Assembly: GCA_012961165.1 (NCBI GenBank)
Contig: DTZW01000098.1
Coordinates: 1-35,948 of the forward strand
DNA length: 35,948 bases
From: Gammaproteobacteria bacterium
Lineage (GTDB): Bacteria; Pseudomonadota; Gammaproteobacteria; Pseudomonadales; Azotimanducaceae
Direction: 5' to 3'
Shown one piece after another: positions 3,817 to 35,948 of the stretch. The translations under genes and the position numbers were made by a program. The stretch's first letter is position 1, and each line of letters begins with the position of its first letter. The notes under the pieces are model-generated. The model made no database searches, was not told the origin of the DNA, and worked only from the letters and a program-made list of their open reading frames with translations.

Positions 3817-3986
3817 TTTCTACCTTTAGTTGCAGAGTGAAATTTGTTGGGTCCCCCGGAATACAGAAACTGTCTGGCGTTTAGCGCATCGCCCAGTGAT
3901 TAAGCTATTGTTGCGCGATTCACGAAGTCAGACGCATTGACTCGTATCCGTTTCCAGGACAATCCATTGAATACCCACCAAACGCC

Positions 3987-4001
3987 GCAATTTCCATGCC
4001 A
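3987..4001 (-). promoter_or_regulatory. Sigma-54 -24/-12 promoter for SDR-dioxygenase operon
   Basis: The minus strand reads TGGCATGGAAATTGC, one mismatch from the consensus TGGCACG-N4-TTGC with exact spacing. The predicted transcription start is about 12 bp downstream, giving a leader of about 160 nt before the SDR ATG at 3816. It is nearly the same as the element before the phenol hydroxylase operon (TGGCATGAAGATTGC). Confidence 0.8.
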
Positions 4002-4086
4002 AACTAGAATGCGCGCAACTGCCAGCCTTTGGGACGATTTTTCTGTTGTTCCAGTTAGCCATATCGCAAATATCTCGATAACTCTT

Positions 4087-4096
4087 GTCAATTGAC
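4087..4096. promoter_or_regulatory. Candidate upstream activator site (DmpR/XylR-like palindrome)
   Basis: The 10-bp perfect palindrome GTCAATTGAC lies about 90 bp upstream of the -24 element at 3987-4001. Its core TCAATTGA matches the centre of the DmpR/XylR site as I recall it (TTGATCAATTGATCAA), and the spacing is normal for a sigma-54 enhancer site. A short palindrome alone is weak; the location gives it weight. Confidence 0.5.
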
Positions 4097-4278
4097 TGAT
4101 GGAAATCCCAGGTACTCTGGACATAAAGTAATGGGCTGCGGCGATTGTATTCAGAAGCGCTGATGCCTGAACAAAATAAATAGGTTCTCTCATTGTCGAA
4201 GCCATATCTACAGGTAAACTACATGCAGCAGGCCCAGCACCATACTAACCGACACGTGCCATACAAAAGGGTAACGAA

Positions 4279-4823: not shown

Positions 4824-7800
4824 TTACTTGAACAAACGCTCTGCAAGTTCACTTTCCCTTTTTTTAGCACGATCAATATTAAGCATTTTGACGTGTCCAA
4901 AACCTTTGATTGTCCTGGGAAGCTCAGCGAGTTCAATCGCGAGCTCAAGGTTGTCCCCAGAAAGCATGTCGCATACCTGAATCATCAGTTCTTCATATTC
5001 TTCAATGAGCGCTCGTTCTCTCTGACGCTCTTGCGTATAACCCATTATGTCGAACCTGGTACCACGTAATATTTTTAATTTTGCCAGTAGCGGATACAGC
5101 ATAAATACCCAGCCACCAAATTCTTTCTTCACCAGGTTGCCAGTATTCTTATCTGACGTTGATATTATTGGGGGTGCCAAATGTGCTTTTAGTTTGTAAT
5201 CACCAGAGAACTGCGCTTCCAGTTTTTTCTTAAACTCGGGGCTACTGTACAGTCGAGCCACCTCATATTCATCTTTATAAGCCATGAGTTTTGCAAAGGA
5301 ATCTGCCACAGACCGGGTCAACTCAAGGTCCGTATTGGCAATACGCTGCTCTGCCATCCGGACCTGGTTTACCAGCGCCAGATATCGATCAGCATAGCCC
5401 ACGCTTTGATAATCAGTAAGTAAAGTTGTCCGGTGTTCGATTAACTCTTCAAGAGTATAGTCGCTCGCCTTTTTATCATTAAGTACAGCGCCTTTGGTCC
5501 ATTCAATGATTTTCGCCCGGTCCTCTGCCCATAGCCTTCCCAAGTTAAATGCTTTGATGTTGAAATCTACTGCAACACCGTTAAGTTTGATGGCCTCAAG
5601 AATCGAAGATTCTTCCAGAGGCAGCAGCCCCTTTTGCGCAGCAAAACCCACCACAAAGAGGTTAGTGGCAATAGTATCGCCACATAGGGCCAGTGCCAAT
5701 TCAGTCGCGTTAACAAAATGCGAGGAATCACTGCCAAGCAGTGAAGTGATCCGGGCAATGTACGGCTCAGACGAAAAATCAATGTCGGCATCGGTCTGGA
5801 AACCCGCTGTAGGTTTGATATGCGTGTTACCCACGAATGTGGTGCGATCCTTTGCCAATGTTTGCGTCGCTTCCTTAGCCATCGAGCCAACCAAATCAAA
5901 CCCCATCACCAGGTCAGCTGCTCCAACATCAATACGTTGTGTATTAATGCGTTTACCAGCATCCGCAATACGTAAATGGCTGTATACCGCCCCACCTTTC
6001 TGAGCGAGGCCAGTCATATCATAAATAGAGCAGGTTTTACCCTCGAGATGAGCCGCCATACCTAACAATGCGCCGACTGTAATCACACCGGTGCCACCGA
6101 CACCGGCAATCATAATGTTGTAGCTCTCAGTTTTAATTGTTGCAGGTTTGACTGCTTGCAGTTGCTCTATATATGATTCATCAGTGGCATTGCCCGTTTC
6201 CTTTTTCAGGCTTCCGCCCTGTACGCTTACGAAAGACGGGCAGAAGCCTTTGACGCAACTGAAATCCATATTGCAACTCGACTGGTCTATTACCCGTTTG
6301 ATTCCCAGCGGGGTTTCTTTAGGTTCAATACTGATACAGTTGGATTGTACGGAACAATCACCGCACCCTTCACAAACTGCATCATTAATAAACATTCTCT
6401 TAGCAGGGTCTGCAAGTAGCCCGCGGTTGCGGCGACGGCGTTTTTCTGTCGCACAGGTCTGCTCGTAAATCAAAACACTGCAACCTTCTGTTTCCCTCAG
6501 TTCCCTCTGGACAACATCCAATTGATCCCGATGATAGATACGGACATCAGAATGTACATTGTCGGCGCCACTGATATAGGCCTCGGGCGTATCCGTCACG
6601 ATGACACAACGACTAACCCCCTCGTACAATACTTGTTGAGTGATGGTGCCGACAGAGATGGGGCCATCTATTGGTTGCCCCCCTGTCATGGCAACTGCGT
6701 CGTTATATAGAAGCTTGTAGGTGATATTTACACCGGCAGCGACTGAAGCTCGAATGGCTAACAACCCGGAATGAAAATAAGTGCCATCACCCAGATTCTG
6801 AAACACATGGTTCGTACCGACAAACGGGGAAATCCCTGCCCAGGTAACACCCTCGGCACCCATATGGGTGAAGCTCAACATATCGGAACGATTAAAAAAA
6901 GCTATTCCATGACAGCCGATGCCACCACCCGCAACGCTACCTTCGGGAAGATTCGTCGAAGTATTGTGGGGACATCCTGAACAGAAAAATGGTGTTCTGT
7001 TCAGGGGGGAATCCGAACCGGATTTTACCAGTAAAAGGTTATTGGTTAACTTGTCTACTCTCTGCTTGAGCCTTTCATCCATGACCCCCAATCGGTCTAG
7101 CTGCCCAGCGATGGCCAGTGCAACCTGCGTCGGGTCGAGCAGTGTCTCCGAAGGTAAAAGTACACCACCAGCCTCATCGCGCTTGCCAATAATTTTGGGA
7201 CGAGAACTTAAATCATACAACACGCTTGCAGCCTGGAGTTCCAGGAATGGTTTTTTTTCTTCGATAAAAAAGAGTAGTTCAAGATCACCAGCGAATGCCC
7301 GAATCCCTTCAGGCTCGAGCGGCCAGATACAGCCAACTTTGTAAACAGCAATACCGAGCTCTTTGGCACGGACTTCATCGACAGCCAATAACTGCAACGC
7401 TTCCATCGTGTCCTGGTAGGATTTACCGGCGGTAACCAACCCCATGATGCATTCATCAACGGCGTACACTGCCCTATCGATATTGTTCGCTCTAACAAAT
7501 TGATGCACCAGTGGCAGTCTGACCCGGTTCACAATCATTTCGTCTGCCTGGGGATTGTAATGACCCGGTTTATAATGGATATCCGCAGCACTGTCGGTTT
7601 CGGGTATCTGGATACTGAAAGTTTCGACGTCAATGTCTATGGTCGCAGTCTGTTCAAGGGTTTCATTTACCGTTTTAAATCCGATCCACAGACCCGAAAA
7701 ACGTGAAAGGCTCCAGCCAAGCAGACCAAAAGTTATGAATTCCTCCACATTGGCTGGATAAAGTACGGGAATAGAATTGGCAGCCAGAGCCTGTTCACTC

Positions 7801-8276
7801 TGGTGTGCGATAGTAGACGACTTTCCTGGGTGATCGTCTCCAAATACAACGAGCACACCACCATTAGGATGTGTTCCAGAATAATTGCCATGTTTAAGCG
7901 CATCTCCCGAGCGATCGACGCCAGGTCCTTTTCCATACCAGAGACCAAATACGCCATCGACATTGGTATCAGTAAATTGTGCCAGCTGTTGCGTACCCCA
8001 GACACTCGTGGCGGCAAGGTCCTCATTTACGCCTGGATTGAAATGTATGTTGTGAGCTGCAAGAGCTGTTTTTTCACGCCATAGCGTCGAATCATAATTG
8101 CCGAGCGGTGAGCCACGATAACCGGAAATAAATCCAGCCGTATTTAGCCCTCCTTTCCTGTCAAGCTCCTGCTGGAGCATCGGAAGTCGAACCAGGGCCT
8201 GTGTGCCATTGATGAATATTCGACCCCGGGTGACCGTATATTTGTCATCGAGACCGATTCTATTCTGCATTGTCAT
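4824..8276 (-). CDS. Indolepyruvate ferredoxin oxidoreductase, fused single-chain form
   Basis: This 1150-aa enzyme of the 2-oxoacid:ferredoxin oxidoreductase class uses thiamine diphosphate and iron-sulfur clusters to convert an aryl-2-oxoacid and CoA to an aryl-acyl-CoA and reduced ferredoxin. In order are an IorA-like N-terminal half; the thiamine-binding region with FCSGCPHNTST and GGGIGCHGIAFF (about 430-460); a cysteine-rich cluster region (CEGCGDC and later Cys); the gamma-type domain with GVGGTGVITVGALLG (about 715-730); and a C-terminal extension typical of the fused form. The ATG at 8276 has GGAG upstream. It ends the long minus-strand gene run. In aromatic amino-acid catabolism it handles indole- and phenylpyruvate; its job in an arene operon is unclear. 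Confidence 0.92.
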   Translation of the reverse strand: MTMQNRIGLDDKYTVTRGRIFINGTQALVRLPMLQQELDRKGGLNTAGFISGYRGSPLGNYDSTLWREKTALAAHNIHFNPGVNEDLAATSVWGTQQLAQFTDTNVDGVFGLWYGKGPGVDRSGDALKHGNYSGTHPNGGVLVVFGDDHPGKSSTIAHQSEQALAANSIPVLYPANVEEFITFGLLGWSLSRFSGLWIGFKTVNETLEQTATIDIDVETFSIQIPETDSAADIHYKPGHYNPQADEMIVNRVRLPLVHQFVRANNIDRAVYAVDECIMGLVTAGKSYQDTMEALQLLAVDEVRAKELGIAVYKVGCIWPLEPEGIRAFAGDLELLFFIEEKKPFLELQAASVLYDLSSRPKIIGKRDEAGGVLLPSETLLDPTQVALAIAGQLDRLGVMDERLKQRVDKLTNNLLLVKSGSDSPLNRTPFFCSGCPHNTSTNLPEGSVAGGGIGCHGIAFFNRSDMLSFTHMGAEGVTWAGISPFVGTNHVFQNLGDGTYFHSGLLAIRASVAAGVNITYKLLYNDAVAMTGGQPIDGPISVGTITQQVLYEGVSRCVIVTDTPEAYISGADNVHSDVRIYHRDQLDVVQRELRETEGCSVLIYEQTCATEKRRRRNRGLLADPAKRMFINDAVCEGCGDCSVQSNCISIEPKETPLGIKRVIDQSSCNMDFSCVKGFCPSFVSVQGGSLKKETGNATDESYIEQLQAVKPATIKTESYNIMIAGVGGTGVITVGALLGMAAHLEGKTCSIYDMTGLAQKGGAVYSHLRIADAGKRINTQRIDVGAADLVMGFDLVGSMAKEATQTLAKDRTTFVGNTHIKPTAGFQTDADIDFSSEPYIARITSLLGSDSSHFVNATELALALCGDTIATNLFVVGFAAQKGLLPLEESSILEAIKLNGVAVDFNIKAFNLGRLWAEDRAKIIEWTKGAVLNDKKASDYTLEELIEHRTTLLTDYQSVGYADRYLALVNQVRMAEQRIANTDLELTRSVADSFAKLMAYKDEYEVARLYSSPEFKKKLEAQFSGDYKLKAHLAPPIISTSDKNTGNLVKKEFGGWVFMLYPLLAKLKILRGTRFDIMGYTQERQRERALIEEYEELMIQVCDMLSGDNLELAIELAELPRTIKGFGHVKMLNIDRAKKRESELAERLFK

Positions 8277-8388: not shown

Positions 8389-9579
8389 TTATCGCCTGCC
8401 AGGTTCGATGCCCAGCATCGTCATCCCCTCCACCTCTGAACAGCCATCGAGATCAACTGCGGCATGATGCGTAGCCATGATTACGTCTCGATAATACTGC
8501 TGCATTGGCGAGCCATCATAAGTTGCGTGCGCGCCTGCAGCCGCATACAAACGTTCTACTGCCCGCCGACAAAGCTCGGCAGCGTAACTTGCCTGCCAGC
8601 GCATCTGGCTATGAGCTTGCGCATCGACGGGTTCTTTTGCGATAGCAATCGCATCAAACAAATCACAATTCCTGCCAATCAGTAGTTCAGCTGAGGTGAT
8701 TTCTGCTGACGATTCCGCAAGGCGTCGTTGCATTGTGCCCCTGCGTGCTTTTGCACCACTGCCCTGGCCGGAATAAATATCGGAACGTACGCGCGTTTTA
8801 TCGACAAACATGTTCCGCATTTCCCTTGCCATTCCGAGCACGCACCCGGCAAGCTGTGTGCCAAGACTACACAGGACTGGCACCATGTAGTTGCCACTTT
8901 CATCATGATCGAGGGCATGGGGGCTAAGGCCATCGAATAGTTTGCCGGTAGGTTCGGCCCGGTGCGCAGGCACAAACACCTCGTCGAGCACAACGTCCTT
9001 GGAACCAGAACCGCGCATGCCAAGCGTATACCAGGTGTCATCGACCTCAACTTCGTCCCGGAGAACCATCGCATGCAGGCTTGCCGGTCCACCATCGCTC
9101 TCCTCAGCGCGAGAAGCACCGATCAACAACCATGGCGAGTGATCTACACCCGAGCAAAATTGCCAGCGACCACTTAATAACCATCCTCCCTCGGTTTTTT
9201 TAAACTGACCCTGTGGCGCCAGTGTCCCCGCTACCAGCACCTCTGGATCAGAACCAAATATTTCCGTCCGGCATTTATCTGAAAAACTCCCCAGAATCCA
9301 ATTATGAGCACCACCAACCATTAACACCCAACCGGATGCAGGGCAGACTCGGGCCGCCTCCGAGCAGGCATATATCTGAGCCCGCAAGGAAGCTCCATAA
9401 CCGCCGTGGCGAACCGGCGTGATCAGCCGGGTCAAGCCTGCCTCTCTCAGGGCGGCAATAGATTCGGGCGCAACCGATCGAGCCGTTTCCGTTTGTTCTC
9501 TACGTTCAGCCAGAACAGGTAAAACCTTCAGGATTGCTTCCTTATGTGAAATGGTTTCCTGTGTCTCCAAAGCATTCAT
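8389..9579 (-). CDS. Flavin-dependent monooxygenase, HsaA/HpaH-type (acyl-CoA dehydrogenase fold)
   Basis: This 396-aa protein has the acyl-CoA dehydrogenase fold but resembles two-component aromatic hydroxylases (HsaA, C2-type p-hydroxyphenylacetate hydroxylase). The segment GRWQFCSGVDHSPW (about 136-149) is the hallmark stretch, and the C-terminal QQYYRDVIMATHHAAVDLD matches the same family. Such enzymes ortho-hydroxylate phenols using reduced FMN/FAD from a separate reductase. No flavin reductase gene is visible in the window. GAGGAG precedes the ATG at 9579. It lies 112 bp upstream of the oxidoreductase gene on the same strand. A true acyl-CoA dehydrogenase is less likely given the motif; the substrate is unknown. 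Confidence 0.85.
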   Translation of the reverse strand: MNALETQETISHKEAILKVLPVLAERREQTETARSVAPESIAALREAGLTRLITPVRHGGYGASLRAQIYACSEAARVCPASGWVLMVGGAHNWILGSFSDKCRTEIFGSDPEVLVAGTLAPQGQFKKTEGGWLLSGRWQFCSGVDHSPWLLIGASRAEESDGGPASLHAMVLRDEVEVDDTWYTLGMRGSGSKDVVLDEVFVPAHRAEPTGKLFDGLSPHALDHDESGNYMVPVLCSLGTQLAGCVLGMAREMRNMFVDKTRVRSDIYSGQGSGAKARRGTMQRRLAESSAEITSAELLIGRNCDLFDAIAIAKEPVDAQAHSQMRWQASYAAELCRRAVERLYAAAGAHATYDGSPMQQYYRDVIMATHHAAVDLDGCSEVEGMTMLGIEPGRR

Positions 9580-9720
9580 CGTGCAAACTCCTCGTTTTTA
9601 GGCTTCCTTAAAGGTAGCTTCTATAATGTAGGCGCAACGTTGTTGCACCGGAACGTGATATTCCCGAGCAACATAACTATTTCCAGGCGACGATAGGTAG
9701 TTGTGTCGCTATGAACTGCT

Positions 9721-10551
9721 TTATGGACCGGAAGAGAAAAAACTGCTGATGAGCGTATTGAATCGTTCTTTGTGTTCAATCTGAGTCCAGTGGCCACAGT
9801 TCCGAAAAAGGTGCAATTCAGAATTTTCTATCAGCCTGAAAAATTGCTCGGAAGTCGAGACAGGTATTACCTGATCTTCAGCACCATGGATAATCAGGGT
9901 TTTTTGTTTGATATTCTGAATATCCTCTTCTGCGCTCTGCATGCTCTTAATCCAGCGTTGTCTTGGTGCAGGAAACATTCTGCTGAATGCTTCCTGAAAA
10001 CCCGGTTGAACACTGGCTTTATAGCGTAATTCGGCCAACTCATCGGATACCAATTCGCGATTGAACGCAAAGGTATCAAGCAACCCACGCATATTTTCAA
10101 TCGATGGCTCGTATCCCCACACCTTGTCCAGACCAGGTGTGAGTTCGAAGTGAACACCAACGCTCCCCATCAAAACCAGTTTCTCAACACGTTCCGGGTA
10201 GCGAATAGTCAGCGCAAGGGCTAGCGCGCCCCCAAACGAATTACCGACTAGATGCGTTTTCTGAATATCAAGCGCATCCAGCAAATCGATAGCATGTTGC
10301 ACCCACCTATCCATATTGTATTCAATCCCATCGGGCCGTTCGGTATAACCAAAACCTGACATATCTGGCGCAATGACCCGGAAGCGATCAGACAGCGCCG
10401 GAATGGTGAGCCGCCAATTAGCCCATGCCGTAACACCCGGACCTGAACCGTGTATAAGAAATACATTTTCACCGGCACCCACATCATGATAGTTGGTCTT
10501 GAAATTTCCTGTTTGGACCGATCGAGCTAATTCCGGGTTTTCACTACTCAT
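9721..10551 (-). CDS. dmpD: Meta-cleavage product hydrolase (alpha/beta hydrolase, DmpD/XylF-like)
   Basis: This 276-aa C-C bond hydrolase would act on ring-cleavage products such as 2-hydroxymuconic semialdehyde or its 6-alkyl ketone forms, giving 2-hydroxypentadienoate plus an acid. The oxyanion motif HGSGPG is near residue 35, the nucleophile elbow GNSFGG near 104, the acid in HGAEDQVIP and the base in NCGHWTQIE near the C-terminus. The ORF track starts at a GTG (10560); the in-frame ATG at 10551, with AGGTGG 5-6 nt upstream, is better. It follows tmoF after a 135-bp gap containing nothing recognisable. The product it makes would need a hydratase, and the only one here is broken. Confidence 0.9.
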   Translation of the reverse strand: MSSENPELARSVQTGNFKTNYHDVGAGENVFLIHGSGPGVTAWANWRLTIPALSDRFRVIAPDMSGFGYTERPDGIEYNMDRWVQHAIDLLDALDIQKTHLVGNSFGGALALALTIRYPERVEKLVLMGSVGVHFELTPGLDKVWGYEPSIENMRGLLDTFAFNRELVSDELAELRYKASVQPGFQEAFSRMFPAPRQRWIKSMQSAEEDIQNIKQKTLIIHGAEDQVIPVSTSEQFFRLIENSELHLFRNCGHWTQIEHKERFNTLISSFFSSGP

Positions 10552-24467: not shown

Positions 24468-24502
24468 TTCGTATCCAACCGATTCGGGATACGTTTTAGA
24501 TC

Positions 24503-24517
24503 GCAATCTTCATGCCA
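24503..24517 (-). promoter_or_regulatory. Sigma-54 -24/-12 promoter for the phenol hydroxylase operon
   Basis: The minus strand reads TGGCATGAAGATTGC, one mismatch from TGGCACG-N4-TTGC at exact spacing. The predicted start of transcription is about 36 nt upstream of the ATG at 24467. It lies between the regulator gene and the dehydrogenase, both on the minus strand, as expected for a DmpR-controlled Po-type promoter. Confidence 0.87.
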
Positions 24518-24674
24518 GTTTCTACAGGGTCCTAAACACCTGTTCTATAAGGAGATCTTAAGTCGGTACAGGTTTGGAGTTCGCTATATGGCAAGTTATT
24601 TAGCCACTTAACCAAATAGCTAACGGGATTTCCGGAAACAGCCTCAAACAGCCGAGCACCAAAGAATGTTCGAG

Positions 24675-24698: not shown

Positions 24699-26387
24699 TC
24701 AATCTTCGGGAACACGGCTGCCGCCAGCCGCAACAATTTCGAACTTTTTCAACCGATATCTGAGTTGCGCATCCCCCATGCCCAATAAACGCGCGGTGGC
24801 TGACACATTTCCATCGGTACTATCAAGCGCCATTTCAATAATTCGCTGTTCAAGTGATTCAAAGGAATTACCTTCTGCAAACCACTCTTTTATATTCAGA
24901 TCTACAGTTTGGTTGGAACTCAATCGGCCACTACGATCAACTGTTGGCAAGAGATTCCCGACCTGTTGCTGGCCCGGAAATAGAACTGTACTGTCAACTT
25001 TACCGCCGTCCTCGGTCAGAATCACACCACGCTCAATCACATTTTCTAGTTCCCGGACGTTACCCGGCCAGGAATATTGTTGAAATGCCGCCCTAACTTT
25101 GTCCGTTATTCCCAAAACGCGTTTGTTGTGGCGAACATTACTTTTCTGAATGAACAGGTCCACCAGTGCAGGTATGTCCTCAACACGTTCTCGAAGAGCA
25201 GGGATGTGTAATGGGAACACATTAATGCGATAGAGCAGATCTGCTCTGAATTCTCCGGCTCGAACTTTTTCTTCAAGATCAGCGTTAGTAGCTGCTATCA
25301 GGCGCACATCAACTTTTCTTGTGTGGATGTCCCCGACCCTGTCAAATTCGCCAGACTGCACTACTCGGAGTAGTTTAGCCTGTGCAGCAGCCGTCAATTC
25401 TCCTACTTCATCAAGAAAAAGAGTGCCACCATGCGCTCGTTCGAACCGGCCCGCTCTAGACTGATCTGCACCGGTGAAAGCGCCTTTTTCGACCCCAAAT
25501 AGTTCAGCCTCAATCAGGTCTGCCGGGAGCGCTGCGCAATTCACTGCAACGAACGGTTTGTCTTTTCTTTTGCTTAGTCGGTGCAGAGCGACTGAAAATA
25601 TGTCTTTGCCAACACCCGTTTCCCCCAACAACAAGACCGGCACATCACAATCAGCGGCAGGCTTCAACAGTTTCAGCGCCGCTTTTATGCTCTGCGATTC
25701 GCCAATAATGTCGTCAGGATTAACGTCTTCGGTCATCGTGGAGCGCAACTGCGTTACTTCGTTACTCAACGAGTACAGAGTTTCCGCAATTGAATCGGCA
25801 GAATAGTATGAGCTGAGCTTTTCACCGTCTTCCCACTCCGCTATGGGTTTCCCCACGATGCGACAGTGTTTGTCCCCCATGCCCATGCACTCAATTTCCT
25901 TGAACAGAATTGGCACTCCGACCAGCTCACTGGTGTATCCACCGGCGTAACCTATCTGGTTCCAGCAGACAGGCTCACCGGAAATACCCATCGTTCGCAG
26001 GTGTTCCTCTGCCTCAAAGGAATTTTCCCAATAAAATTCGCCATAATACCTACCGCTGCCTATATCCAGTTCAAGCTTTATGGGTACTACACGAACGATA
26101 CCCTCAAGTGCGTGTAATTGAGGACCTACCAGAAACATATCTTCTTCGCTCGAATCCGGGCGGATGGTCCTCGCAAGCCTCGCATCATTTTGACCGGACA
26201 AACTTCCCATTCGCATGAGCAATCCTTTAGCCCGGGAAAGGCCAAGACTGTTTACTAGCTCATTTCTCAGCGCCCCAAAGGACGAAGCATGCAGCATCAG
26301 CATCCGCTGCTCACCAAGCCAGATCTTGCCACTCTCATCGTCAAAGGAGATGATGGATCGCAAATCCTGAATTGAAGGTACAATCAT
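24699..26387 (-). CDS. dmpR: Sigma-54-dependent aromatic-responsive activator, DmpR/XylR class
   Basis: This 562-aa enhancer-binding protein activates sigma-54 promoters when it binds an aromatic effector directly. The N-terminal XylR_N/V4R sensor region spans about 1-205, with [16 protein letters not shown] at the V4R end; the AAA+ domain follows with Walker A GETGVGKD, the sigma-54 contact loop GAFTGA and Walker [10 protein letters not shown]; the Fis-type HTH is at the C-terminus ([22 protein letters not shown]). Length equals that of DmpR. It is the only regulator in the window. A short A/T-rich 110-bp region separates it from the divergent trpB-like gene. Effector range cannot be read from the sequence. 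Confidence 0.95.
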
Positions 26388-26497: not shown

Positions 26498-27856
26498 ATG
26501 CAAACAAAAATAACGTTACCTGAATCCTCGATACCAGATCATTGGTACAACGTCGTTGCTGATATGCCTAACCAACCACTCCCTTATATTGGACCTGAGG
26601 GCCAACCGATCACTCCCGATGCCATGCAAGCAATTTTTCCGCCATCAATCATTGAACAGGAGATGTCTGGTGAACGCTGGATCGAAATACCTGAACCCGT
26701 CCGAGAGGCTCTCAAGTTGTGGCGCCCTTCGCCGCTGTACCGTGCGCATCGACTTGAACAGGCCATCGGGACACCTGCCCGGATCTATTACAAAAATGAA
26801 TCGGTCAGCCCGGCGGGCTCCCACAAACCCAATACAGCTGTAGCCCAAGCCTACTATAATCGCGAGGCCGGTATTAGTCACCTTGCTACTGAAACCGGGG
26901 CGGGTCAATGGGGTTGTGCACTCTCCCTTGCCGGACAAATGTTTGGACTCCAGGTTCATATTTACATGGTGAAAATAAGTTACGACCAGAAACCTGCAAG
27001 GCGCTCGATGATGCAAGCCTGGGGCGGGGAGGTGCACTCCAGCCCGTCCAATCTGACCGAATGTGGCCGAAAGATTCTTGATAAAGACCCCAACTGCAGT
27101 GGTTCACTCGGTATCGCCATATCAGAGGCGGTAGAAGAAGCCGCGGGTAAGGAAGACACAAACTACGCACTTGGTTCGGTGCTCAATCATGTCCTGCTAC
27201 ATCAAACCGTCATCGGCCAGGAGGCCAAAGCCCAACTGGCACTGGTTGACGAATACCCGGATGTAATTTTCGCTCCATGCGGTGGAGGGTCTAATTTTGG
27301 GGGAATTGCCTTTCCGTTCTTCGCTGACAAAGCTGCCGGAAAGGAAGTGCAGCTTGTTGCGGTTGAACCAACATCATGCCCCACACTCACCAAGGGAACC
27401 TATGCCTGGGATTGGGGAGATTCTGCCGGTCTGACACCAATAATGAAAATGTACACGCTTGGCCATGACTTTGTGCCACCAGGTATCCACGCGGGTGGAC
27501 TCCGATACCACGGCGCCTCTGCCCTGGTCAGCCAGCTTTATCACGAGGGGCTTATAGACGCAGTTTCAATACCACAGACAGAGACGTTCGAGGCGGGTCT
27601 TTTATTTGCAAGAACCGAAGGCATTATTCCGGCACCAGAATCAACCCATGCGCTGGCCGCCATGATACGCGAGGCTAAATCCTGCAAAGAAAGCGGCGAA
27701 CAGAAAACGCTATTGTTTAACCTGTCCGGGCATGGTCATTTCGATTTGAGTGCCTATGATCGTTTTATCAGTGGGGAATTACGGGATGAGGAATATTCAA
27801 GCGAAGCCATTGCGGCGTCTCTACAAAACCTACCCAATGTTGCTTTTGAAGAATAA
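26498..27856 (+). CDS. Tryptophan synthase beta-like protein, TrpB2 type
   Basis: This 452-aa PLP enzyme has the long TrpB2 form. PLP lysine: GSHKPNTA (about residue 108); substrate loop TETGAGQWG; phosphate-binding CGGGSNFGG; C-terminal NLSGHGHFD. Core residues look intact, so activity is plausible. TrpB2 proteins condense indole with serine (or phosphoserine in some archaea) and often lack a TrpA partner; no trpA or other trp gene is near. It is divergent from the aromatic regulator and converges with the DUF1329 gene, separated by a perfect inverted repeat. A normal indole salvage role and a special role with aromatic compounds both remain open. Confidence 0.9.
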   Translation: MQTKITLPESSIPDHWYNVVADMPNQPLPYIGPEGQPITPDAMQAIFPPSIIEQEMSGERWIEIPEPVREALKLWRPSPLYRAHRLEQAIGTPARIYYKNESVSPAGSHKPNTAVAQAYYNREAGISHLATETGAGQWGCALSLAGQMFGLQVHIYMVKISYDQKPARRSMMQAWGGEVHSSPSNLTECGRKILDKDPNCSGSLGIAISEAVEEAAGKEDTNYALGSVLNHVLLHQTVIGQEAKAQLALVDEYPDVIFAPCGGGSNFGGIAFPFFADKAAGKEVQLVAVEPTSCPTLTKGTYAWDWGDSAGLTPIMKMYTLGHDFVPPGIHAGGLRYHGASALVSQLYHEGLIDAVSIPQTETFEAGLLFARTEGIIPAPESTHALAAMIREAKSCKESGEQKTLLFNLSGHGHFDLSAYDRFISGELRDEEYSSEAIAASLQNLPNVAFEE

Positions 27857-27911: not shown

Positions 27912-29327
27912 TTAGCGATAGTCTCGAAGTTGGTCAACATCAAACATTTCTTCCGTGACAATCAAATCTCGCCTTTCCCAATTCGGTGTCATGTACAAGG
28001 TGGTCATCCGCTTGGTGACGTAGTTATTAACCATCACGTAGCGCCATTGTGCGTCACCTTCACTCGGTCGCCATGCACGGCTATCTTCCCAGTTTCTGTA
28101 GGGATTTCCTCTTGGGTCCCAAGTCATATGGTACTGCATGTAATAAAATTCCTTGTCAACCCAGGTGCGGCGCTTTGAGTACATGTACTTGCCGGTTTTA
28201 TCAATGATGTCCAATATCCAAACAGGACGAAGTTCCAGCTCCATTGATTCGTAGTTACACGCATCCTCAGTCAACACAGCAGAGTCATATACATATCCGA
28301 CCTCCGGAGAAGCAAGCACATAACCTTCGCCAACCAGTTTGTATTCAAAGGACTCCACATCAGTTTTCCCCCAGTAGGCACGCCAGTCATCCCAGGTGAG
28401 TTCCTGTCCTGAGGCTATCGGGTCTTGTGCATCTGAACCGGTCAAGACTCGCGTGCGGCGAAGGCTTGGAATAAAGACCTTAAAGTCATCATCCTTCTTG
28501 GCATCCGCATACCGTTGGCGTACACCAGCCAATCCACGAATATCATAAGGTTCGAGAAAGAAAATGGATCCACCTTCGATGTAATCCTCTTTCCCTGCAA
28601 TATCGCCGAACGGCTCTACATTCTGGCGATTATGATAGTGCCACCACCAGAGATCGGCCTTGTATTCACTATCAACTTTTCCAGCCGGTGTGCAGGCACG
28701 CATATGAATGGGTTCAAAATCAAGCGTGTCGGTGTTCACCGAATGGGCGACGTATGACCAGTTCAATTCCAACCCGTTTTTCGGATTCATGAATGGCACC
28801 GAGGTCGCCCCAGGACCTGACATCAAAGCATAGGAGCCATCGGGGTATAACAATTCACCGGCCTCATTGATTTGCAGCTCTATGTTTTTCTCCTTGAGTT
28901 CCTTGGTCCCCTGTAAATACCCCTTGTGCATATAATAGGTATTAGTGGGAACGATGGTGATCTCTTTGATATGGCTCCAATCAGAGGTGAGATGACCAAG
29001 AAGCTCTTCCGGAAGAAAATCCTTCAGCCACGGAAACTGGTCCATATTCTCACTGTTGATCTTCAGACCCGGTTTAAGCTCTTCGGGTAGTTCCGCATTC
29101 GCCAACAAGTCGTAGGAGTCGTAACCTCGAACTTCTCTCCATTCTTTTGCCAATGCGACGGCTGCAGGCTTGGATATTTCTTCCACCCATGCCGCATGAT
29201 TTGGATTTCCTGTTTGTTTGGCAAACTCTTTCCACGCTTCCAGCGCTTTATTGGTATCTGCAAATCCTGAGGAACTGCAGAAGAGTGCAAACAGCCATAT
29301 CGAATTGAATTTTTTTAATGATTTCAT
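27912..29327 (-). CDS. DUF1329-family exported protein
   Basis: This 471-aa protein carries an N-terminal signal peptide (MKSLKKFNSIWLFALFCSS, probable cleavage near FADT). The DUF1329 family has a predicted outer-membrane-associated, beta-rich fold; the C-terminal part with RRTWVDKEFYYMQYHMTWDP and repeated aromatic residues fits it. The ATG at 29327, with AGGAGA upstream, is preferred over the track's 29360 because it begins the signal peptide. It is the last gene of the Ycf48/RND/DUF1302/DUF1329 operon. The function is not established; co-occurrence with DUF1302 and RND genes near catabolic genes suggests handling of hydrophobic compounds at the outer membrane. Confidence 0.88.
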   Translation of the reverse strand: MKSLKKFNSIWLFALFCSSSGFADTNKALEAWKEFAKQTGNPNHAAWVEEISKPAAVALAKEWREVRGYDSYDLLANAELPEELKPGLKINSENMDQFPWLKDFLPEELLGHLTSDWSHIKEITIVPTNTYYMHKGYLQGTKELKEKNIELQINEAGELLYPDGSYALMSGPGATSVPFMNPKNGLELNWSYVAHSVNTDTLDFEPIHMRACTPAGKVDSEYKADLWWWHYHNRQNVEPFGDIAGKEDYIEGGSIFFLEPYDIRGLAGVRQRYADAKKDDDFKVFIPSLRRTRVLTGSDAQDPIASGQELTWDDWRAYWGKTDVESFEYKLVGEGYVLASPEVGYVYDSAVLTEDACNYESMELELRPVWILDIIDKTGKYMYSKRRTWVDKEFYYMQYHMTWDPRGNPYRNWEDSRAWRPSEGDAQWRYVMVNNYVTKRMTTLYMTPNWERRDLIVTEEMFDVDQLRDYR

Positions 29328-29376
29328 TAACTTTTTCTCCTGGTTTAAATTGCATTCCACCGCGCCATAGCAATGT

Positions 29377-31299
29377 TTAAAATTGATAGGTTATCGATAG
29401 TTCTATAAAGTCTTTGTCGTCGAATATTCCTATCGGCGCCACCTCAGCACGACCACTAAAGTGCTGTATCTCCAGCCGAGGACGCCAGTGTCCGCCAAAG
29501 TAATTAAAATCTATTCGTTGTCTATAACTCGTGCCATGACCATCAATATTTCTGATAAAAAGCCCTTCCAGGACTAGGCGTTGGTTATCCAGAGGCGCGC
29601 TCCACAAAAACGTGACGTAGTTTTGGTTAGTCTCAACTTCAGTAGTTCCATAAGGTGCCTGTGCCATCAAATTGTCGGCATCCTCAGTGTGCAAATTGAA
29701 CCACTGGAAACTGGTGAATATTGATTTTTGTTGCCCGGCCCAGCCAGGTACCCACAAGGGGTAGTCAAAGCCCATCATCAGAGAAGTCACATCTCTTTCC
29801 ACAATCGAAGCTGAAGGACTGACGAAATTTGCAACTGCCCCCTTCTCCGACTGTGCCGCGAAGAATGGATTTTGAACAACGCTTTGATTAAAGGGTTTGT
29901 CGAATTCATGGGACAATTCAATACGCATCGATGGCGACGTGCCTTTGGGGCCAAAAGAGACAAAGTCTCCCATATCCCTCGTAAAGCTAGCCCCAACAAG
30001 TTTCTGCCGATAGGTAAAATCCAGATCAATATGTACCGAAACAGAGCACTCCAGACCCGTCCCGCCGGGATCGTTCACGGGATCATTACACCCTCCACCC
30101 GTCAGCAGGGTAAGCGGGCTTGTTGTCAAAGGACTTTTACCTGCCGCACCGCGAAGATACGGCAGATAACCGGATGGGTTTCCCGCGGTTGGCGATGTCG
30201 CAGTCGGATTGGCAAAATCAGGTAACCAGAGGGCCGCCAGCAGCGTCGCATGGTCAACCTCAACATTAGCGACCGAACCGGCGGGATCATTCACACCCGA
30301 CCCGACATGCACCGTCGCTCCGCGCATTTTTACGATAGGTAGATCCTGCCTGCCGTAAAACGCATTCAAGGTCATTGTGCCACCGAGTGACTCAAACTTT
30401 AATCTCACGCCGACTTCAGGTTCGTCAAAATCATCCATTTCGATGACATCGAGTTTCGCACCGAAAGCCACCGCACCCAGGCCTGACTGATGAGGCAACC
30501 CAATGTCGGAAAAATCTGGCCAGGGTAGCCCGAATGTGCCGCCGTCAGTTGCATCACTGGTTGTTGGATTGTTTACCAATACCTCACTATGGCGAACCTC
30601 AGGAATGATATTCACTTCCAGCACTGGGCGTTTCATACCGATTGCTTCAAAAGGCGCGGCAATACCCATTTTACTAAAATTAAAGTCCGCAGAAATCATC
30701 CACGCAGGAATCCGAATTTCATCGGTATCCTTAAACACAAATCGCTCACGCAAGTCCTGAGCATGAAGAATATCTAACAGCCGCAAGCCATCAGATTGAC
30801 CCCACCCACGTTGAAACTTGCCGACCTTGAATGTGTATCGACGTTTCGAGTCTTTGTACTTTAAAGAGAGCTCGCGAATCACCTCGTCATCAAAATCATC
30901 GAAGATATCGAGTTCATCGTTGGGTGCACAAAATTCCCTTGCCTGAAGATTGCAATTGCTGGCGCCGTGCTGAAAACTGCCGCTGGGAAAGGGTGGACCA
31001 GCGAACAGGTTTTTCAACCCGCCGGTGCGCTCGACGAAATCGGGATCATTCGCCTGCCCTCTAACCCACAAATTGCCGATAAGCGTCAGATTGCGATTCG
31101 GGCGATAAGTTGCCTTAATCTCTGATAGATAATTCTGCGGGCCATCATCCGACCCCTGTTCCAGGTCATATAGAACGGAGTAACCGGCTTTTAACCTGCC
31201 GTCCACGGTCAAACCTTTCACATCAATATCAAGAGCAGATACTGGCGCAGAAACGATCAGGCCAAGTAATACTAATAGTTTTAGTTGAAATTCCCTCAT
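29377..31299 (-). CDS. DUF1302-family outer-membrane protein
   Basis: This 640-aa exported protein starts with a signal peptide (LKLLVLLGLIVSAPVSA, cleavage before LDID) and ends with a terminal aromatic (ITYQF) and many alternating beta strands, as in outer-membrane barrels. The DUF1302 family assignment is by its N-terminal LDIDVKGLTVDGRLKAGYS and long strand-rich body. GGAGAAA precedes the ATG. It lies between the RND transporter (22 bp) and the DUF1329 gene (49 bp). A role as a channel or receptor for a hydrophobic substrate is a reasonable but unproven inference. Confidence 0.85.
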   Translation of the reverse strand: MREFQLKLLVLLGLIVSAPVSALDIDVKGLTVDGRLKAGYSVLYDLEQGSDDGPQNYLSEIKATYRPNRNLTLIGNLWVRGQANDPDFVERTGGLKNLFAGPPFPSGSFQHGASNCNLQAREFCAPNDELDIFDDFDDEVIRELSLKYKDSKRRYTFKVGKFQRGWGQSDGLRLLDILHAQDLRERFVFKDTDEIRIPAWMISADFNFSKMGIAAPFEAIGMKRPVLEVNIIPEVRHSEVLVNNPTTSDATDGGTFGLPWPDFSDIGLPHQSGLGAVAFGAKLDVIEMDDFDEPEVGVRLKFESLGGTMTLNAFYGRQDLPIVKMRGATVHVGSGVNDPAGSVANVEVDHATLLAALWLPDFANPTATSPTAGNPSGYLPYLRGAAGKSPLTTSPLTLLTGGGCNDPVNDPGGTGLECSVSVHIDLDFTYRQKLVGASFTRDMGDFVSFGPKGTSPSMRIELSHEFDKPFNQSVVQNPFFAAQSEKGAVANFVSPSASIVERDVTSLMMGFDYPLWVPGWAGQQKSIFTSFQWFNLHTEDADNLMAQAPYGTTEVETNQNYVTFLWSAPLDNQRLVLEGLFIRNIDGHGTSYRQRIDFNYFGGHWRPRLEIQHFSGRAEVAPIGIFDDKDFIELSITYQF

Positions 31300-31321: not shown

Positions 31322-33706
31322 TTACGATGCCGCAGGTAGTTCTTGTGAATTAATAGCGGCTGTTGCCGCCGTTTCTGGTTCGAAGGTACTGTTTCTTTCC
31401 GGAAACAGAGATTTAGGCTTGAATGCGGCCAACGCAGCGGGCAGGAACAACAACGAGCCCAACATGTTCATGAACAGCACCAATCCCAACAACATGCCCA
31501 TTTCAGATTGAAAGCGAAGTGGAGACATAAATGCCCAGGGTAGCAGTGGACCGATCATCGTTATCGCAGTAACGAAGATTGCATTACCCGAGGTCAGGAA
31601 TGCTCGATGTATTGCATCAGCAATAGTATCCGTGGCTTTCGCATACTCTTCTTTAATGCGATCAACCATATAAATACCGTAGTCGACGCCTAACCCCACG
31701 CCGAGCGCGGCTAAAGGCAAAGTGCTCACGTTTAATCCCACCTCTTTCCACGCCATAAACGCGTACGTCAGTGAATTTGCCGTGGCCAGGCTGAATAGCA
31801 AAATAAACGCTACTGTCGGGGAGCGATAATAGATGAGAATGCAGGTTCCAATCACAATGGCAATCGCGATCATTATTTTGATATTTGACTCAGTGATTTC
31901 GCGATTCAGGGCCTCTACAATGCCAATCTGCCCGCCTGAATATAAAAAATCGGCTTCTGAAACAATTTCATCTTCAAGGGTAAAAAAGCCTTCAAGCGTT
32001 TTGGTCATATTTTCTATCGTCGGCACACTGTGATCTTCGAGAAAAAACGATACATTGCCGATTTCCCAATCTACATTTGTAAAAGCCGCAAAATCTCCCG
32101 GCTCTCCTCGAGAACGGTACATATAGATATCAAACCCGATCTCTTCTTTCGTGTCCGGAAGAATTTCATAAGATGGATCTCCCTCATACAAAACCGAATT
32201 GACAAGTTTTATAATCGGCACAAGGCTTTGCGCTGGACGGACTTCCCGCATGTGTTCATACATATAGCGATCCATCGCTTCGATCTGGTGGTAAACGGTC
32301 GGGTCCAGCATCGTGTTTTTGTCACCTTCGATGTAAACCTGCATCAGATCAGTACCCAGAAACGAATACCTGGTATTGATTGACTCAGAATCGAGGTTGT
32401 ATCGCGCATCTGGCCACAGGATTGCGCTTCCCTTGGTATCTCCAACCGTCAGATTTGAGGCATAGGTCATACCCAGTGCAAACAACCCGAGCGTCACCCC
32501 AATGACAATGAATTTGTGATCTTCAATATCAATGACTGTAGTCCAGATTTTGTTGAGTAACTTCGAACCGGTATTATGGGAAACCGGTGGTTTCATCAAA
32601 CACAGCAGTGATGCCGCGAGAATCAATGCCGGGATGATAGACAACAGCCATAACCCGCAAATAATTGCCAACCCCTTGATGCTGGGTATCGCCACCAAAC
32701 CCAGTACACCAAAACCCGCAGCATCGGTAAAAATAGCTGCAGTACTGGGCACCATGACCCTGGCCAGCCCTTCCTTGGTACAAAGCCGCAAATTGTCAGG
32801 ACGTGTCGAGGCGTTATCAACATTGTCCAGAATCCGCGTCGTTAATTGCACACCGTGTGACAGGACAATGGCGAAAATAAAGGCTGGTAGCAGAACGAGG
32901 AGTGGATCAAGGTTGTATCCGAAAGCCCCCATTGTACCGAGGCCCCATATGGTCGCTACCACAGCGGTTGTCATGGGTACAAACACACCAATCCATGTAC
33001 GGAAATACAGGTACAACACCATCGCGACTATGGCCAGAGAAATAGCAAGGATCAATACAACAGAATCAAGGGCCTGATAAATGTAGCCGAGCAGGATCGG
33101 TCTGCCCACAAAATTTAGCGATAAATCATCGTCCTCCATTTCTATCCTGAGATTCAGGAAAAAACCCAGGATACTTTCAAAATCTGAATCATCTTTGAAG
33201 TCTGCAATGATCATCATTGAGGATTCATCATCCGAAACCAGAAACCCGCGATATTGGCTATTCACGGCCCGACGAAATTGTTCCATAGACGCTGAATCTC
33301 GCGGCAAGTCTGGCCACAGGATCGCGTCAACTTCAACCGTTCCACCGCCACCGGTAATGGCCTTGGTCTTACGTAGAATCATGGACTGGCTGAGATGGCG
33401 GTAAGTGGACGGGTGGTAGTAAATTTCTTCCGCAATTTTCTTGTATTTCTCTAGAAACTGAGTCGAGTAAACATTCCCGCTTTCACTTTTTACTTCGATT
33501 AGCGTCGTGTTAGCACCACCAAACTGATCCCCAAACCGTAAAAACAGCTCCACATTGTTTGCCCCTTCCGGCAGCATCTCTTCAAGAACAACGTTGAGGG
33601 ATAAACCTTTATAGATGAAGTAAGCAGGGACTATAGTGGTAGCTAAAAGCACTATGAGAACCCAGCCTGCATACTTTGCAACAAATGCTGAAATAACGTT
33701 GGACAT
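31322..33706 (-). CDS. RND-superfamily transporter (MMPL-like)
   Basis: This 794-aa inner-membrane protein has two repeats, each with one leading membrane helix (VLIVLLATTIVPAYFIY near the start), a periplasmic loop, and a five-helix bundle (about 210-370 and 600-770). The second bundle has GLGVDYGIYMVDRIKEEY, a hallmark of predicted RND/MMPL exporters. It is shorter than the 1000-residue drug-efflux RND proteins and has no periplasmic adaptor gene nearby. Its ATG overlaps the stop of the Ycf48-like gene (TGATG). In this operon type it may move lipids or hydrophobic substrates between membranes; direction is not known. Confidence 0.9.
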   Translation of the reverse strand: MSNVISAFVAKYAGWVLIVLLATTIVPAYFIYKGLSLNVVLEEMLPEGANNVELFLRFGDQFGGANTTLIEVKSESGNVYSTQFLEKYKKIAEEIYYHPSTYRHLSQSMILRKTKAITGGGGTVEVDAILWPDLPRDSASMEQFRRAVNSQYRGFLVSDDESSMMIIADFKDDSDFESILGFFLNLRIEMEDDDLSLNFVGRPILLGYIYQALDSVVLILAISLAIVAMVLYLYFRTWIGVFVPMTTAVVATIWGLGTMGAFGYNLDPLLVLLPAFIFAIVLSHGVQLTTRILDNVDNASTRPDNLRLCTKEGLARVMVPSTAAIFTDAAGFGVLGLVAIPSIKGLAIICGLWLLSIIPALILAASLLCLMKPPVSHNTGSKLLNKIWTTVIDIEDHKFIVIGVTLGLFALGMTYASNLTVGDTKGSAILWPDARYNLDSESINTRYSFLGTDLMQVYIEGDKNTMLDPTVYHQIEAMDRYMYEHMREVRPAQSLVPIIKLVNSVLYEGDPSYEILPDTKEEIGFDIYMYRSRGEPGDFAAFTNVDWEIGNVSFFLEDHSVPTIENMTKTLEGFFTLEDEIVSEADFLYSGGQIGIVEALNREITESNIKIMIAIAIVIGTCILIYYRSPTVAFILLFSLATANSLTYAFMAWKEVGLNVSTLPLAALGVGLGVDYGIYMVDRIKEEYAKATDTIADAIHRAFLTSGNAIFVTAITMIGPLLPWAFMSPLRFQSEMGMLLGLVLFMNMLGSLLFLPAALAAFKPKSLFPERNSTFEPETAATAAINSQELPAAS

Positions 33707-34890
33707 CAGTTCTCTCCCCAGCGGCTGGAGATGAGTCTAATCTTCCCGGATGCGGCAAGATTGAATGCCTCGTCGTAGCTCTGTTTTTCGAAATCGCCCG
33801 AAACAACCAATCCTCGAATACCAGATGCCCAAAATTCACCACCTGGCAAGACGTCGATGCCCCCCAACCAGATAAAACCCAAAGGAAAGCCAGCGCCAGC
33901 TGTCAACATCTCCGTGTTCAATCCTCTCGCTTTGATAAGTGTTGAACGACCTACAATCAACGCCTCACCGTTGCCTCCCATATCAACATCAAGCAGGTGC
34001 TCGCCAGTTTGGGATACGATGGGTGTTACCGAATATTCAATCTCACTGGCGGGAATTCCACCATAAGTGCTGCCAGTGTATTCACGACCCAGGCGTATTG
34101 CTTTTGCGCGCTCTCGGGCTTCCTTAAGGGCACGCTTTTTTGACACGCGCGCAACTATTTCAAGACGTTCATCGTCTGTCGCCAATGTGAGACGTACTGC
34201 ATTGCCGTCGAGCCCGACGACATAGGCGACTTCATCATTTCCATCAATCGCCAGCCAGGTCACCGAAATATCAATCGGGCTAATCAACCAGTGATCCCCG
34301 CCATTTTCAGTGTGGCCAATCACACCAAATTCACCTACGAGTAACGCACTGTTGTTGTCCTTTGCAAACACACCGTGCAAACGAGGGAGATCCCGACCTT
34401 CAAAACCCAGCAATTTCTGTTTTTGCCATGATTTGCCGCCGTCTTTGGTATTCCATATATTCGCCTCGTGGCCTACGACCCAACCATTGTTTCGGTCTAC
34501 GAAGGAGACATCACGAAGGTAGATACCGGCGATTTCTTTTTGGACAATCCATGAATCCCCACCATCTTCGGTAAAAAAAATAGAACCGCGGTGTCCTACT
34601 GCCCAACCGGTGTTCTCGTCGACAAACGAGATTCGCCTAATCAGTTCATTTCTACCGATGTAGCTCGCTTCCCAGGTCTCCCCGGCATCTTTGGTGCGTA
34701 ATACGGAGCCGCCATATCCAGCAACGAAACCCAGGGTTTCACTCGGAAATGCTACGGCAAATAGATTGTCCGGCCAGAATCGATGGAAGCTGGAATCTTC
34801 AGCATGAACCTGGCTGACAGCTCCCCATATTGCACCGGTCAGGCCAATTGCCAGCACAAAATATTTACCCTTTTTAGCTAGATCTAACAA
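33706..34890 (-). CDS. Ycf48/HCF136-like periplasmic beta-propeller protein
   Basis: This 394-aa exported protein has a signal peptide (cleavage near SQVHA/EDSS) and repeated BNR/Ycf48 motifs such as GGSVLRTKDAGETW, RGSIFFTEDGGDSW and EANIWNTKDGGKSW, forming a beta-propeller. Ycf48 is a photosystem II assembly factor in phototrophs; this relative in a non-photosynthetic locus must do something else, perhaps assembly of the neighbouring transporter. The first codon is TTG, with GGGGA 6 nt upstream; no in-frame ATG is closer. It is the first gene behind the exact sigma-54 promoter, with about 95 nt of leader. Confidence 0.88.
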   Translation of the reverse strand: MLDLAKKGKYFVLAIGLTGAIWGAVSQVHAEDSSFHRFWPDNLFAVAFPSETLGFVAGYGGSVLRTKDAGETWEASYIGRNELIRRISFVDENTGWAVGHRGSIFFTEDGGDSWIVQKEIAGIYLRDVSFVDRNNGWVVGHEANIWNTKDGGKSWQKQKLLGFEGRDLPRLHGVFAKDNNSALLVGEFGVIGHTENGGDHWLISPIDISVTWLAIDGNDEVAYVVGLDGNAVRLTLATDDERLEIVARVSKKRALKEARERAKAIRLGREYTGSTYGGIPASEIEYSVTPIVSQTGEHLLDVDMGGNGEALIVGRSTLIKARGLNTEMLTAGAGFPLGFIWLGGIDVLPGGEFWASGIRGLVVSGDFEKQSYDEAFNLAASGKIRLISSRWGEN

Positions 34891-34995
34891 TTACATTCCC
34901 CGCTCGCAGCGCCCGTTCACCTTCTTAATCTGTAAAGGCTGATATTATTTTTATTGGAACCGCACACATCAGCTTTTCTGGATGTTGTTAACAAA

Positions 34996-35010
34996 GCAAG
35001 TAGCGTGCCA
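34996..35010 (-). promoter_or_regulatory. Exact-consensus sigma-54 promoter for the envelope operon
   Basis: The minus strand reads TGGCACGCTACTTGC followed by T, an exact match to TGGCACG-N4-TTGCW. The transcription start should be about 95 bp upstream of the Ycf48-like TTG. A transposase gene begins about 140 bp upstream on the other strand, where enhancer sites would usually lie. I find no strong activator palindrome there; TTGACTATTTGA near 35064-35075 is only a loose match. Confidence 0.88.
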
Positions 35011-35076
35011 AGAAAATGAGGGCGGAATTAGGTAACTGCAGAGGTATCGATTCCCTGTTTTGTTGACTATTTGAGG

Positions 35077-35868
35077 ACTGGGACGCGACGATTTCGTTAT
35101 ATGGTGAACTGATCTACCAATTTTTGGATACTGACAATTTAATTCCCGAATATGGATAATCTGGGGGTGAGTATTTACAAACGTCATCGATTTCCAGGTG
35201 AAATTATCAGTTATGCAGTCTGGTTCTACTATCGATTCAATCTCAGCCAGGGAGATATCGAAGATCTTCTCGCTGAACGCGGTGTTATTGTGAGCTACGA
35301 AACCATCCGCCTCTGGTGTATCAAGTTTGGTGCTAAGTTTGCCCGGCGATTGAAACGAAATCACCAAGGCTATGGTGATACCTGCTACATCGACGAAGTC
35401 TTTGTGAAGATCAATGGTAAGCAGCATTATCTGTGGAGAGCCGTTGATCAGGACGGAGCGGTGGTAGACGTCTTTCTTCAGAGTCGCCGGGATGGTGCAG
35501 CAGCAAAACGTTTTTTCAAGCGTCTATTGAAACGCCATGGCGGTGAACCCAGGAAGATCGTCACGGACAAGCTTCGAAGTTATGGGGTCGCGAAACGAGA
35601 GCTGATGCCGGACGTTATCCACGACACGAACCAATATGCTAATAATCGGGCTGAACTGTCGCATCAGCCTACGAGAGTGAGAGAGCGTGTTATGCGGCGA
35701 TTTAAATCAATCAGTCAGGCGCAACGATTTCTTGGTGTGCGCATGCAACTGTTTACAATCTGTTCAACCTTGGTCGCCATCTGCTCAAAAGCAGACCACT
35801 ACCAATAACTGGGGTCGGAGTAATTACCCGGGGTAAAGTACCGGAGTAAACGCACCAACTTCCCAGTC
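35077..35868. mobile_element. Possible IS6-type element ends (weak)
   Basis: GACTGGGA at 35077-35084 recurs inverted as TCCCAGTC at 35861-35868, framing the transposase gene with a length (about 790 bp) usual for IS6 elements. The repeat is only 8 bp and I see no flanking 8-bp target duplication, so these boundaries are tentative. Confidence 0.25.
35152..35808 (+). pseudogene. IS6-family transposase with compensating frameshifts and early stop
   Basis: The first 195 or so codons match an intact IS6-type DDE transposase: HTH-like N-terminus, catalytic D in CYIDEVFV, D in IVTDKLRSY and E in NRAELSHQ. After QRFLGVRMQLF the reading frame loses the family's NLFNLGRHLLK, which appears in the next frame (AAT CTG TTC at about 35757), and returns to frame at KADHY. 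One base is missing near TTT (35752-35754) and one is extra at AAAA (35787-35790). A TAA then cuts off the usual C-terminal 15 to 20 residues. The catalytic core is whole, but the element looks damaged; sequencing error at homopolymers is the alternative. Confidence 0.83.
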
Positions 35869-35948
35869 TGACATTGAACATTCTCTGGCGGAAAACTGCC
35901 TTCCCCAACATTTATTCTAAGCATGCCTTAGGAAGATACTTTTGTATT

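Follow-up and report, generated by a model that had tools for sequence, protein, structure and literature searches.

What controls a four-gene envelope operon that shares a stretch of DNA with operons for a phenol hydroxylase and a dioxygenase? The stretch, here called the window, is 35,948 nucleotides of a contig from a gammaproteobacterial MAG and was analysed at its full length. A first-pass annotation had proposed that a sigma-54 promoter drives the envelope operon and that an aromatic signal induces it. From the sequence, aromatic-responsive sigma-54 control of this operon is well supported, and we consider it very probable that the best explanation, taken as a whole, is sigma-54 and XylR/DmpR-type control of an AmeABCD-like operon at element 35010–34995.

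The envelope operon and its sigma-54 element

The operon lies on the minus strand, and by Pfam its families are PSII_BNR/Ycf48, MMPL/RND, DUF1302 and DUF1329. Its first gene, which has a TTG start, encodes a Ycf48-like protein with a BNR propeller (33706–34890; PF14870, E 2e-21). It is followed by the gene for an HAE3-like RND/MMPL inner-membrane transporter (31322–33706; PF03176, E 2e-24), assigned by Pfam MMPL, whose product matches the MmpL3/MmpL4 structures in sequence. Next come a DUF1302 protein, predicted to be an outer-membrane beta protein (29377–31299; PF06980, E 7e-11), and, from the last gene, DUF1329, a LolA-like periplasmic protein (27912–29360; PF07044, E 3e-23). The junctions between the genes are a 1-base overlap and then gaps of 22 and 16 bases. 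The predicted structure of DUF1302 is beta-rich and of low confidence (pLDDT 50), too poor for use; for the DUF1329 model, Foldseek gave matches to LolA-type carriers (LolA3, 9tp6) and to the DUF1329 structure 4z48. With DUF1302, DUF1329, YCF48-like and RND proteins encoded in one cassette, the operon has the gene content of the AmeABCD type.

The promoter had been claimed as 15 bases on the minus strand at 34996–35010, correctly placed before this operon, and both points hold. When position 34995 is added, TGGCACGCTACTTGCT (34995–35010, minus strand) is an exact match to the 16-base consensus that we applied, TGGCACG-N4-TTGCW with GG and GC at fixed spacing. The element is intergenic and lies 105 bp ahead of the Ycf48 start codon on the same strand, so placed that transcription is predicted to begin at about 34985. 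It is the best sense-strand sigma-54 site within 250 bp before Ycf48 (shuffle p 0.002). Similarity to the sigma-54 consensus alone means little, since sites with up to two mismatches are no commoner in the window (42) than in shuffles (37). The exact 16-mer occurs four times on the two strands of the 5.34-Mb MAG, against about 1.3 expected by our own arithmetic from base counts, and all four copies are found shortly upstream of an ORF on the same strand: before this operon, before a dmpK operon on contig C454, before a histidine-kinase-like gene on C73 and before an exported-protein gene on C174, the gene names on these three contigs being our own reading of the translations. RpoN itself is encoded in the MAG on contig C160 (E 5e-68). 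A minus-strand sigma-70-like site was looked for in the region upstream of the Ycf48 operon and none was found.

The two similar elements said to precede the dioxygenase and phenol operons are present, both on the minus strand: TGGCATGGAAATTGCG (3986–4001) stands before the SDR-dioxygenase operon and TGGCATGAAGATTGCG (24502–24517) before the ADH-phenol hydroxylase operon. Two other candidates in the window were rejected as promoters. One, TGGCACACAGCTTGCC (8849–8863), matches TGGCAC-N5-TTGC exactly, lies inside an acyl-CoA dehydrogenase gene and was taken as a chance occurrence; the other, TGACATGAAAGTTGCA (13541), sits in coding sequence. Between its dioxygenase and monooxygenase genes the window also encodes a fused 2-oxoacid:ferredoxin oxidoreductase-like protein of 1150 aa (4824–8276; POR, DUF6537).

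Paired sites and their candidate activators

XylR/DmpR-type proteins, as described in PMC6449761, use paired palindromes of 16–20 nt with centres 29–42 nt apart, usually 100–200 nt upstream; PMC7264223 likewise places the activator sites of this class about 100–200 bp upstream. We scored sites out of 12 against the 16-bp dyad TTnnYCAWWTGRnnAA, a consensus written after several sites had been seen, for which only held-out tests count fully. Paired predicted sites of this kind, missed by the earlier annotation, lie upstream of all three intergenic sigma-54 elements. At the Ycf48 promoter the proximal site TTGACTATTTGAGGAC (35063–35078, 10/12) and the distal site TTCACCATATAACGAA (35093–35108, read on the minus strand, 11/12) have their centres 60.5 and 90.5 bp from the TGG on its upstream side, which puts them about 85 and 115 bp ahead of the predicted transcription start. 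The two dyads, which together span 35063–35108, are 30 bp apart, a spacing within the range given in PMC6449761. As at the SDR promoter, where TTAGCCATATCGCAAA (4055–4070) and CTTGTCAATTGACTGA (4084–4099) are centred 61.5 and 90.5 bp ahead of the TGG, the centres lie nearer to the promoter than is usual according to that paper, which counts against the proposed control. The ADH promoter has TTCGCTATATGGCAAG (24580–24595) and TTAACCAAATAGCTAA (24608–24623), with centres 28 bp apart, at 70.5 and 98.5 bp ahead of its TGG. Pairs with this 60/90 geometry occur nowhere in the window except at the three intergenic sigma-54 promoters, the ADH pair being displaced by 9 bp. Over the window the dyad itself is not enriched (26 sites against 25 in shuffles), so that only the placement of sites is informative. 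A stricter pattern, TTGANCAANTGNTCAA, allowed 3 mismatches, found nothing at the Ycf48 promoter, where the looser 16-bp dyad is required.

Among some 35,900 window positions, a held-out motif made from two sites of the homologous locus L033 alone ranked the ADH sites first and third and the SDR site TTAGCCATATCGCAAA second. The same motif put the Ycf48 distal site at rank 24, and the window's own activator may therefore bind that site weakly. A second held-out motif, for which nothing but the dmpK promoter of C454 was used, gave rank 3 of the roughly 35,900 positions to the distal site of the Ycf48 promoter and rank 17 to the proximal one; with a motif from the L033, ADH and SDR promoters together, the distal site ranked 6. 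In the third held-out test, sites were enriched at element-bearing promoters outside the consensus set (Fisher P 5e-8), and enrichment was absent in homologues without the element (Fisher P 0.71) and at the promoters on C73, C174 and C157.

Other gene sets of this kind are found in the same MAG. On C454 a second Ycf48 gene is divergent from a dmpK-catechol dioxygenase-aldehyde dehydrogenase operon (L090, G000:C454 2-1700). Its promoter has the sigma-54 element TGGCATGCTAGTTGCT, with a score of 0.98, and a 12/12 site, and the dmpK operon has its own exact sigma-54 element with one 12/12 and one 11/12 site. On C157 (L094, G000:C157 3-6998) an activator gene is followed by TGGCACATTGATTGCA (894) just before an RND gene, and then by DUF1302 and DUF1329 genes; this activator does not belong to the XylR_N type that the MAG encodes on other contigs. 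Two further sets, on C253 and C473, had no element scoring 0.9.

That the window encodes a DmpR-class activator, as had been claimed, is confirmed by the gene at 24699–26387 (minus strand). Its product has XylR_N and V4R domains, a sigma-54 AAA+ domain with GAFTGA and a Fis HTH with the helix GDAQLRYR, and it matches DmpR/CapR (6iy8) with E 2e-162. GAFTGA and the effector-pocket His and Trp align with those of DmpR (6iy8) and, judged by eye in that alignment, the phenol-positioning His/Trp and the zinc-binding Cys/Glu, whose roles in DmpR are described in PMC7264223, appear to be kept. The MAG has two XylR_N proteins, this one and another on contig C10 with the canonical recognition helix TRPAFSYR. 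Among the proteins examined, GDAQLRYR is found only in the window activator and in that of L033 (4726–6390); the others have TRPQLAYR, TRPAFSYR and similar helices, or TAPQYRYR in L097. Judged from two proteins only, the type of site seems to go with the recognition helix: the proposed altered site is TTnGCCATATGGCnAA as against the usual TTGATCAWWTGATCAA, and the altered helix is GDAQLRYR as against TRPQLAYR/TRPAFSYR. The sites of the Ycf48 promoter mix both types. Perhaps the two activators with this helix, that of the window and that of L033, make up a separate specificity class of the XylR/DmpR family in which helix and site have both been altered, with the Ycf48 promoter joining the signals of both activators of the MAG, an idea we offer tentatively and are inclined to doubt.

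Conservation of the promoter and alternative explanations

To follow the element into relatives, we scanned the Ycf48 protein against GTDB genomes, which gave 21 loci with 12 closer homologues (L022–L033, 44–73% identity), and compared, upstream of each start, the highest sense-strand sigma-54 score within 250 bp with those of dinucleotide shuffles. The gene order is the same in L022–L033 wherever the contig is long enough. The homologous operons usually adjoin genes for toluene monooxygenase, phenol hydroxylase or a ring-hydroxylating dioxygenase, and in L023, L025 and L033 a XylR/DmpR-type activator gene adjoins the operon. The expectation that the same promoter would precede homologous operons came true in part. 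Strong elements stand before the operons of L023, L025, L027 and L032 (each p 0.002, the floor of the test) and L028 (p 0.007), with a weak one in L033 (shuffle p 0.04), whereas no element was found within 250 bp in L024, L026, L029, L030, L031, L065 or L022. With the window excluded, the sense strand was enriched over 13 homologues (Fisher P 5e-7) and the antisense strand was not (P 0.99). The homologues of the PAH-dioxygenase type, five in number (L024, L026, L029, L030 and L031), all lack the element. These five and L065 have neither an element nor significant activator sites, so sigma-54 control does not extend to every copy of the operon. Among the distant Ycf48 loci from family, class and order searches, no element scored 0.9 or more. 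The presence of an XylR_N gene was tried as a separator of homologues with and without the element and fails, as 14 of the 15 searched genomes have one (in this count two genomes occur twice under different handles). In L022 there is a weak sigma-54 match 334 bp before the Ycf48 start, and between the two lies a dmpK-like remnant with an internal stop (9667–10001); the layout would fit an operon that came to lie downstream of an older phenol hydroxylase promoter. The element kept in five homologues, the paired sites and the same design on C454, before both a Ycf48 paralogue and dmpK, together support the regulatory reading.

Could the element be a chance match, with another promoter driving the operon? 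Such a match would agree with the abundance of two-mismatch sites in shuffles, with the further exact 15-mer inside a coding gene and with the several homologues that have no element. However, an exact 16-mer on the right strand and in the right place, kept in relatives and accompanied by paired activator sites, speaks against chance, as does the upstream region without a minus-strand sigma-70-like site, and we regard this explanation as very improbable. Has the native control instead been changed or disabled by an insertion, so that the state of the promoter differs from that in the ancestor? An IS6/IS240-type insertion sequence (35126–35808, plus strand; PF13610, E 4e-36) begins with its left terminal repeat GGATACTGACAATTTAATT at 35126, a boundary judged by the terminal repeats common to copies on C75 and C453. 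Just 116 bp of non-IS sequence is thus left upstream of the element, and the published sites of the class, according to PMC6449761, are usually 100–200 bp upstream. Yet both predicted activator sites are spared within these 116 bp, and their spacing is that of the SDR promoter, which has no such insertion; a disturbed promoter is in our view unlikely. Beyond the insertion sequence, a repeat at least 138 bp long (35811–35948) runs to the contig end; it is dispersed, whole or partial, over many contigs of the MAG and apparently truncates the IS6 transposase gene at its 3' end. The MAG consists of 480 contigs with 8% estimated contamination. In four genomes of its genus no match to Ycf48 was found, and in its family only weak ones, which suggests that the contig was horizontally acquired or possibly mis-binned.

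More questions concern the activator. Is it possible that the sigma-54 promoter is real and responds to the C10 protein, or to both proteins, and not to the activator of the window? We take this possibility seriously without favouring it. The motif from C454 dmpK ranks the Ycf48 sites above those of the ADH and SDR promoters, the order is reversed with the motif from L033, whose activator has the GDAQLRYR helix of the window's, and the half site TTCACCAT is present again in the C454 Ycf48 promoter; all of this would fit the C10 protein. On the other hand, the gene for the window activator is a near neighbour on this contig, the sites of the Ycf48 promoter are spaced like those of the SDR promoter, and ATAACGAA, the right half, is similar to ATAGCGAA in the ADH promoter.

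Proposed role and known systems

Returning to sigma-54 and XylR/DmpR-type control, we hypothesize that sigma-54 RNA polymerase transcribes the operon from element 35010–34995, and that a XylR/DmpR-type activator, once it has bound an effector resembling phenol or toluene, would occupy the dyads 60.5 and 90.5 bp upstream to bring about promoter opening. The common design before the phenol hydroxylase, dioxygenase and Ycf48 operons suggests that the three may be induced together. The product of the operon is most likely AmeABCD-like, with an inner-membrane RND pump, a periplasmic carrier similar to LolA, a DUF1302 protein in the outer membrane and the Ycf48 propeller in the periplasm; hydrophobic arenes, or intermediates derived from them, might cross the envelope by this route. 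As to direction, export for tolerance is slightly favoured over uptake.

The first-pass annotation suggested that this would tie a largely undescribed transport system to arene degradation; as a claim to novelty this is too strong, given the precedents in PMC4630880 and PMC6449761. In the latter, AphR, a XylR/DmpR-type regulator, is predicted to control DUF1302, PF07044, COG1033 and COG4447 genes in Burkholderia sp. 383, and a role against toxic aromatics is suggested for these four families. As described there, the AphR regulon is like the window in its four families, in the XylR/DmpR-type activator beside phenol genes and in its paired palindromic sites; it differs in belonging to Betaproteobacteria, where other species place these families under AphS or AphT as well, and no counterpart of the ADH/SDR variant sites appears in that description. 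In Aromatoleum aromaticum EbN1, EtpR was found to control the 'efflux' cluster ebA326–ebA335 by means of a deletion mutant, transcripts and proteins (PMC4630880). Compared by regulation, this system resembles the window, as a sigma-54 activator acts on catabolic and neighbouring efflux clusters with sigma-54 motifs before both, but it serves an anaerobic p-ethylphenol pathway. Plasmid 2 of EbN1 carries a YCF48-MMPL-DUF1302-DUF1329 set in the gene order of the window. The same four families make up the relative that has been characterised, AmeABCD of Castellaniella defragrans, which is of the HAE3 RND lineage and is needed for full growth on monoterpenes (PMC6394551); it differs from the window operon in these substrates and in its order, AmeA being DUF1302, AmeB DUF1329, AmeC COG4447 and AmeD the RND protein. 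The dmp/xyl/mph operons share with the window the -24/-12 promoter, upstream palindromic sites, a V4R sensor and a GAFTGA ATPase, although their promoters drive catabolic enzymes, whereas that of the window drives an envelope operon (PMC3063778, PMC7264223).

The link between this gene set and the sensing of aromatics is thus already published for other bacteria and is here extended from Betaproteobacteria to gammaproteobacterial MAGs. What we add is the geometry of the sites, a possible change of DNA specificity and the element-less relatives as a natural contrast; the newest part, the variant sites and the helix, rests on little data. If the proposed control is true, it becomes more credible that the DUF1302/DUF1329/RND/Ycf48 genes take an active part in aromatic catabolism instead of simply accompanying it, and inducer, activator and promoter would offer a testable handle on this transport system.

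Related proteins have been met in several other settings. P. putida requires DUF1302 and DUF1329 proteins on Tween 20, and the prediction is that they assemble into complexes that include a periplasmic protein and a transporter of the RND type (PMC10866462). In Delftia, members of both DUF families occur in nanopods and in the phenanthrene cluster (PMC3110197), and a similar gene set was highly expressed in a benzene-degrading culture (PMC13101534). Among the loci studied here, second DUF1329 genes are found in tandem in L026 (15792–18726) and divergent from Ycf48 in L028 (2500–3906). The loci of the window activator and of L033 both carry CATATG-centred sites. Lastly, a gene for a PLP-dependent enzyme (PALP) recurs near the XylR/DmpR-type activator in the window (26498–27856), in L025 (3251–4546) and in L033 (3292–4497).
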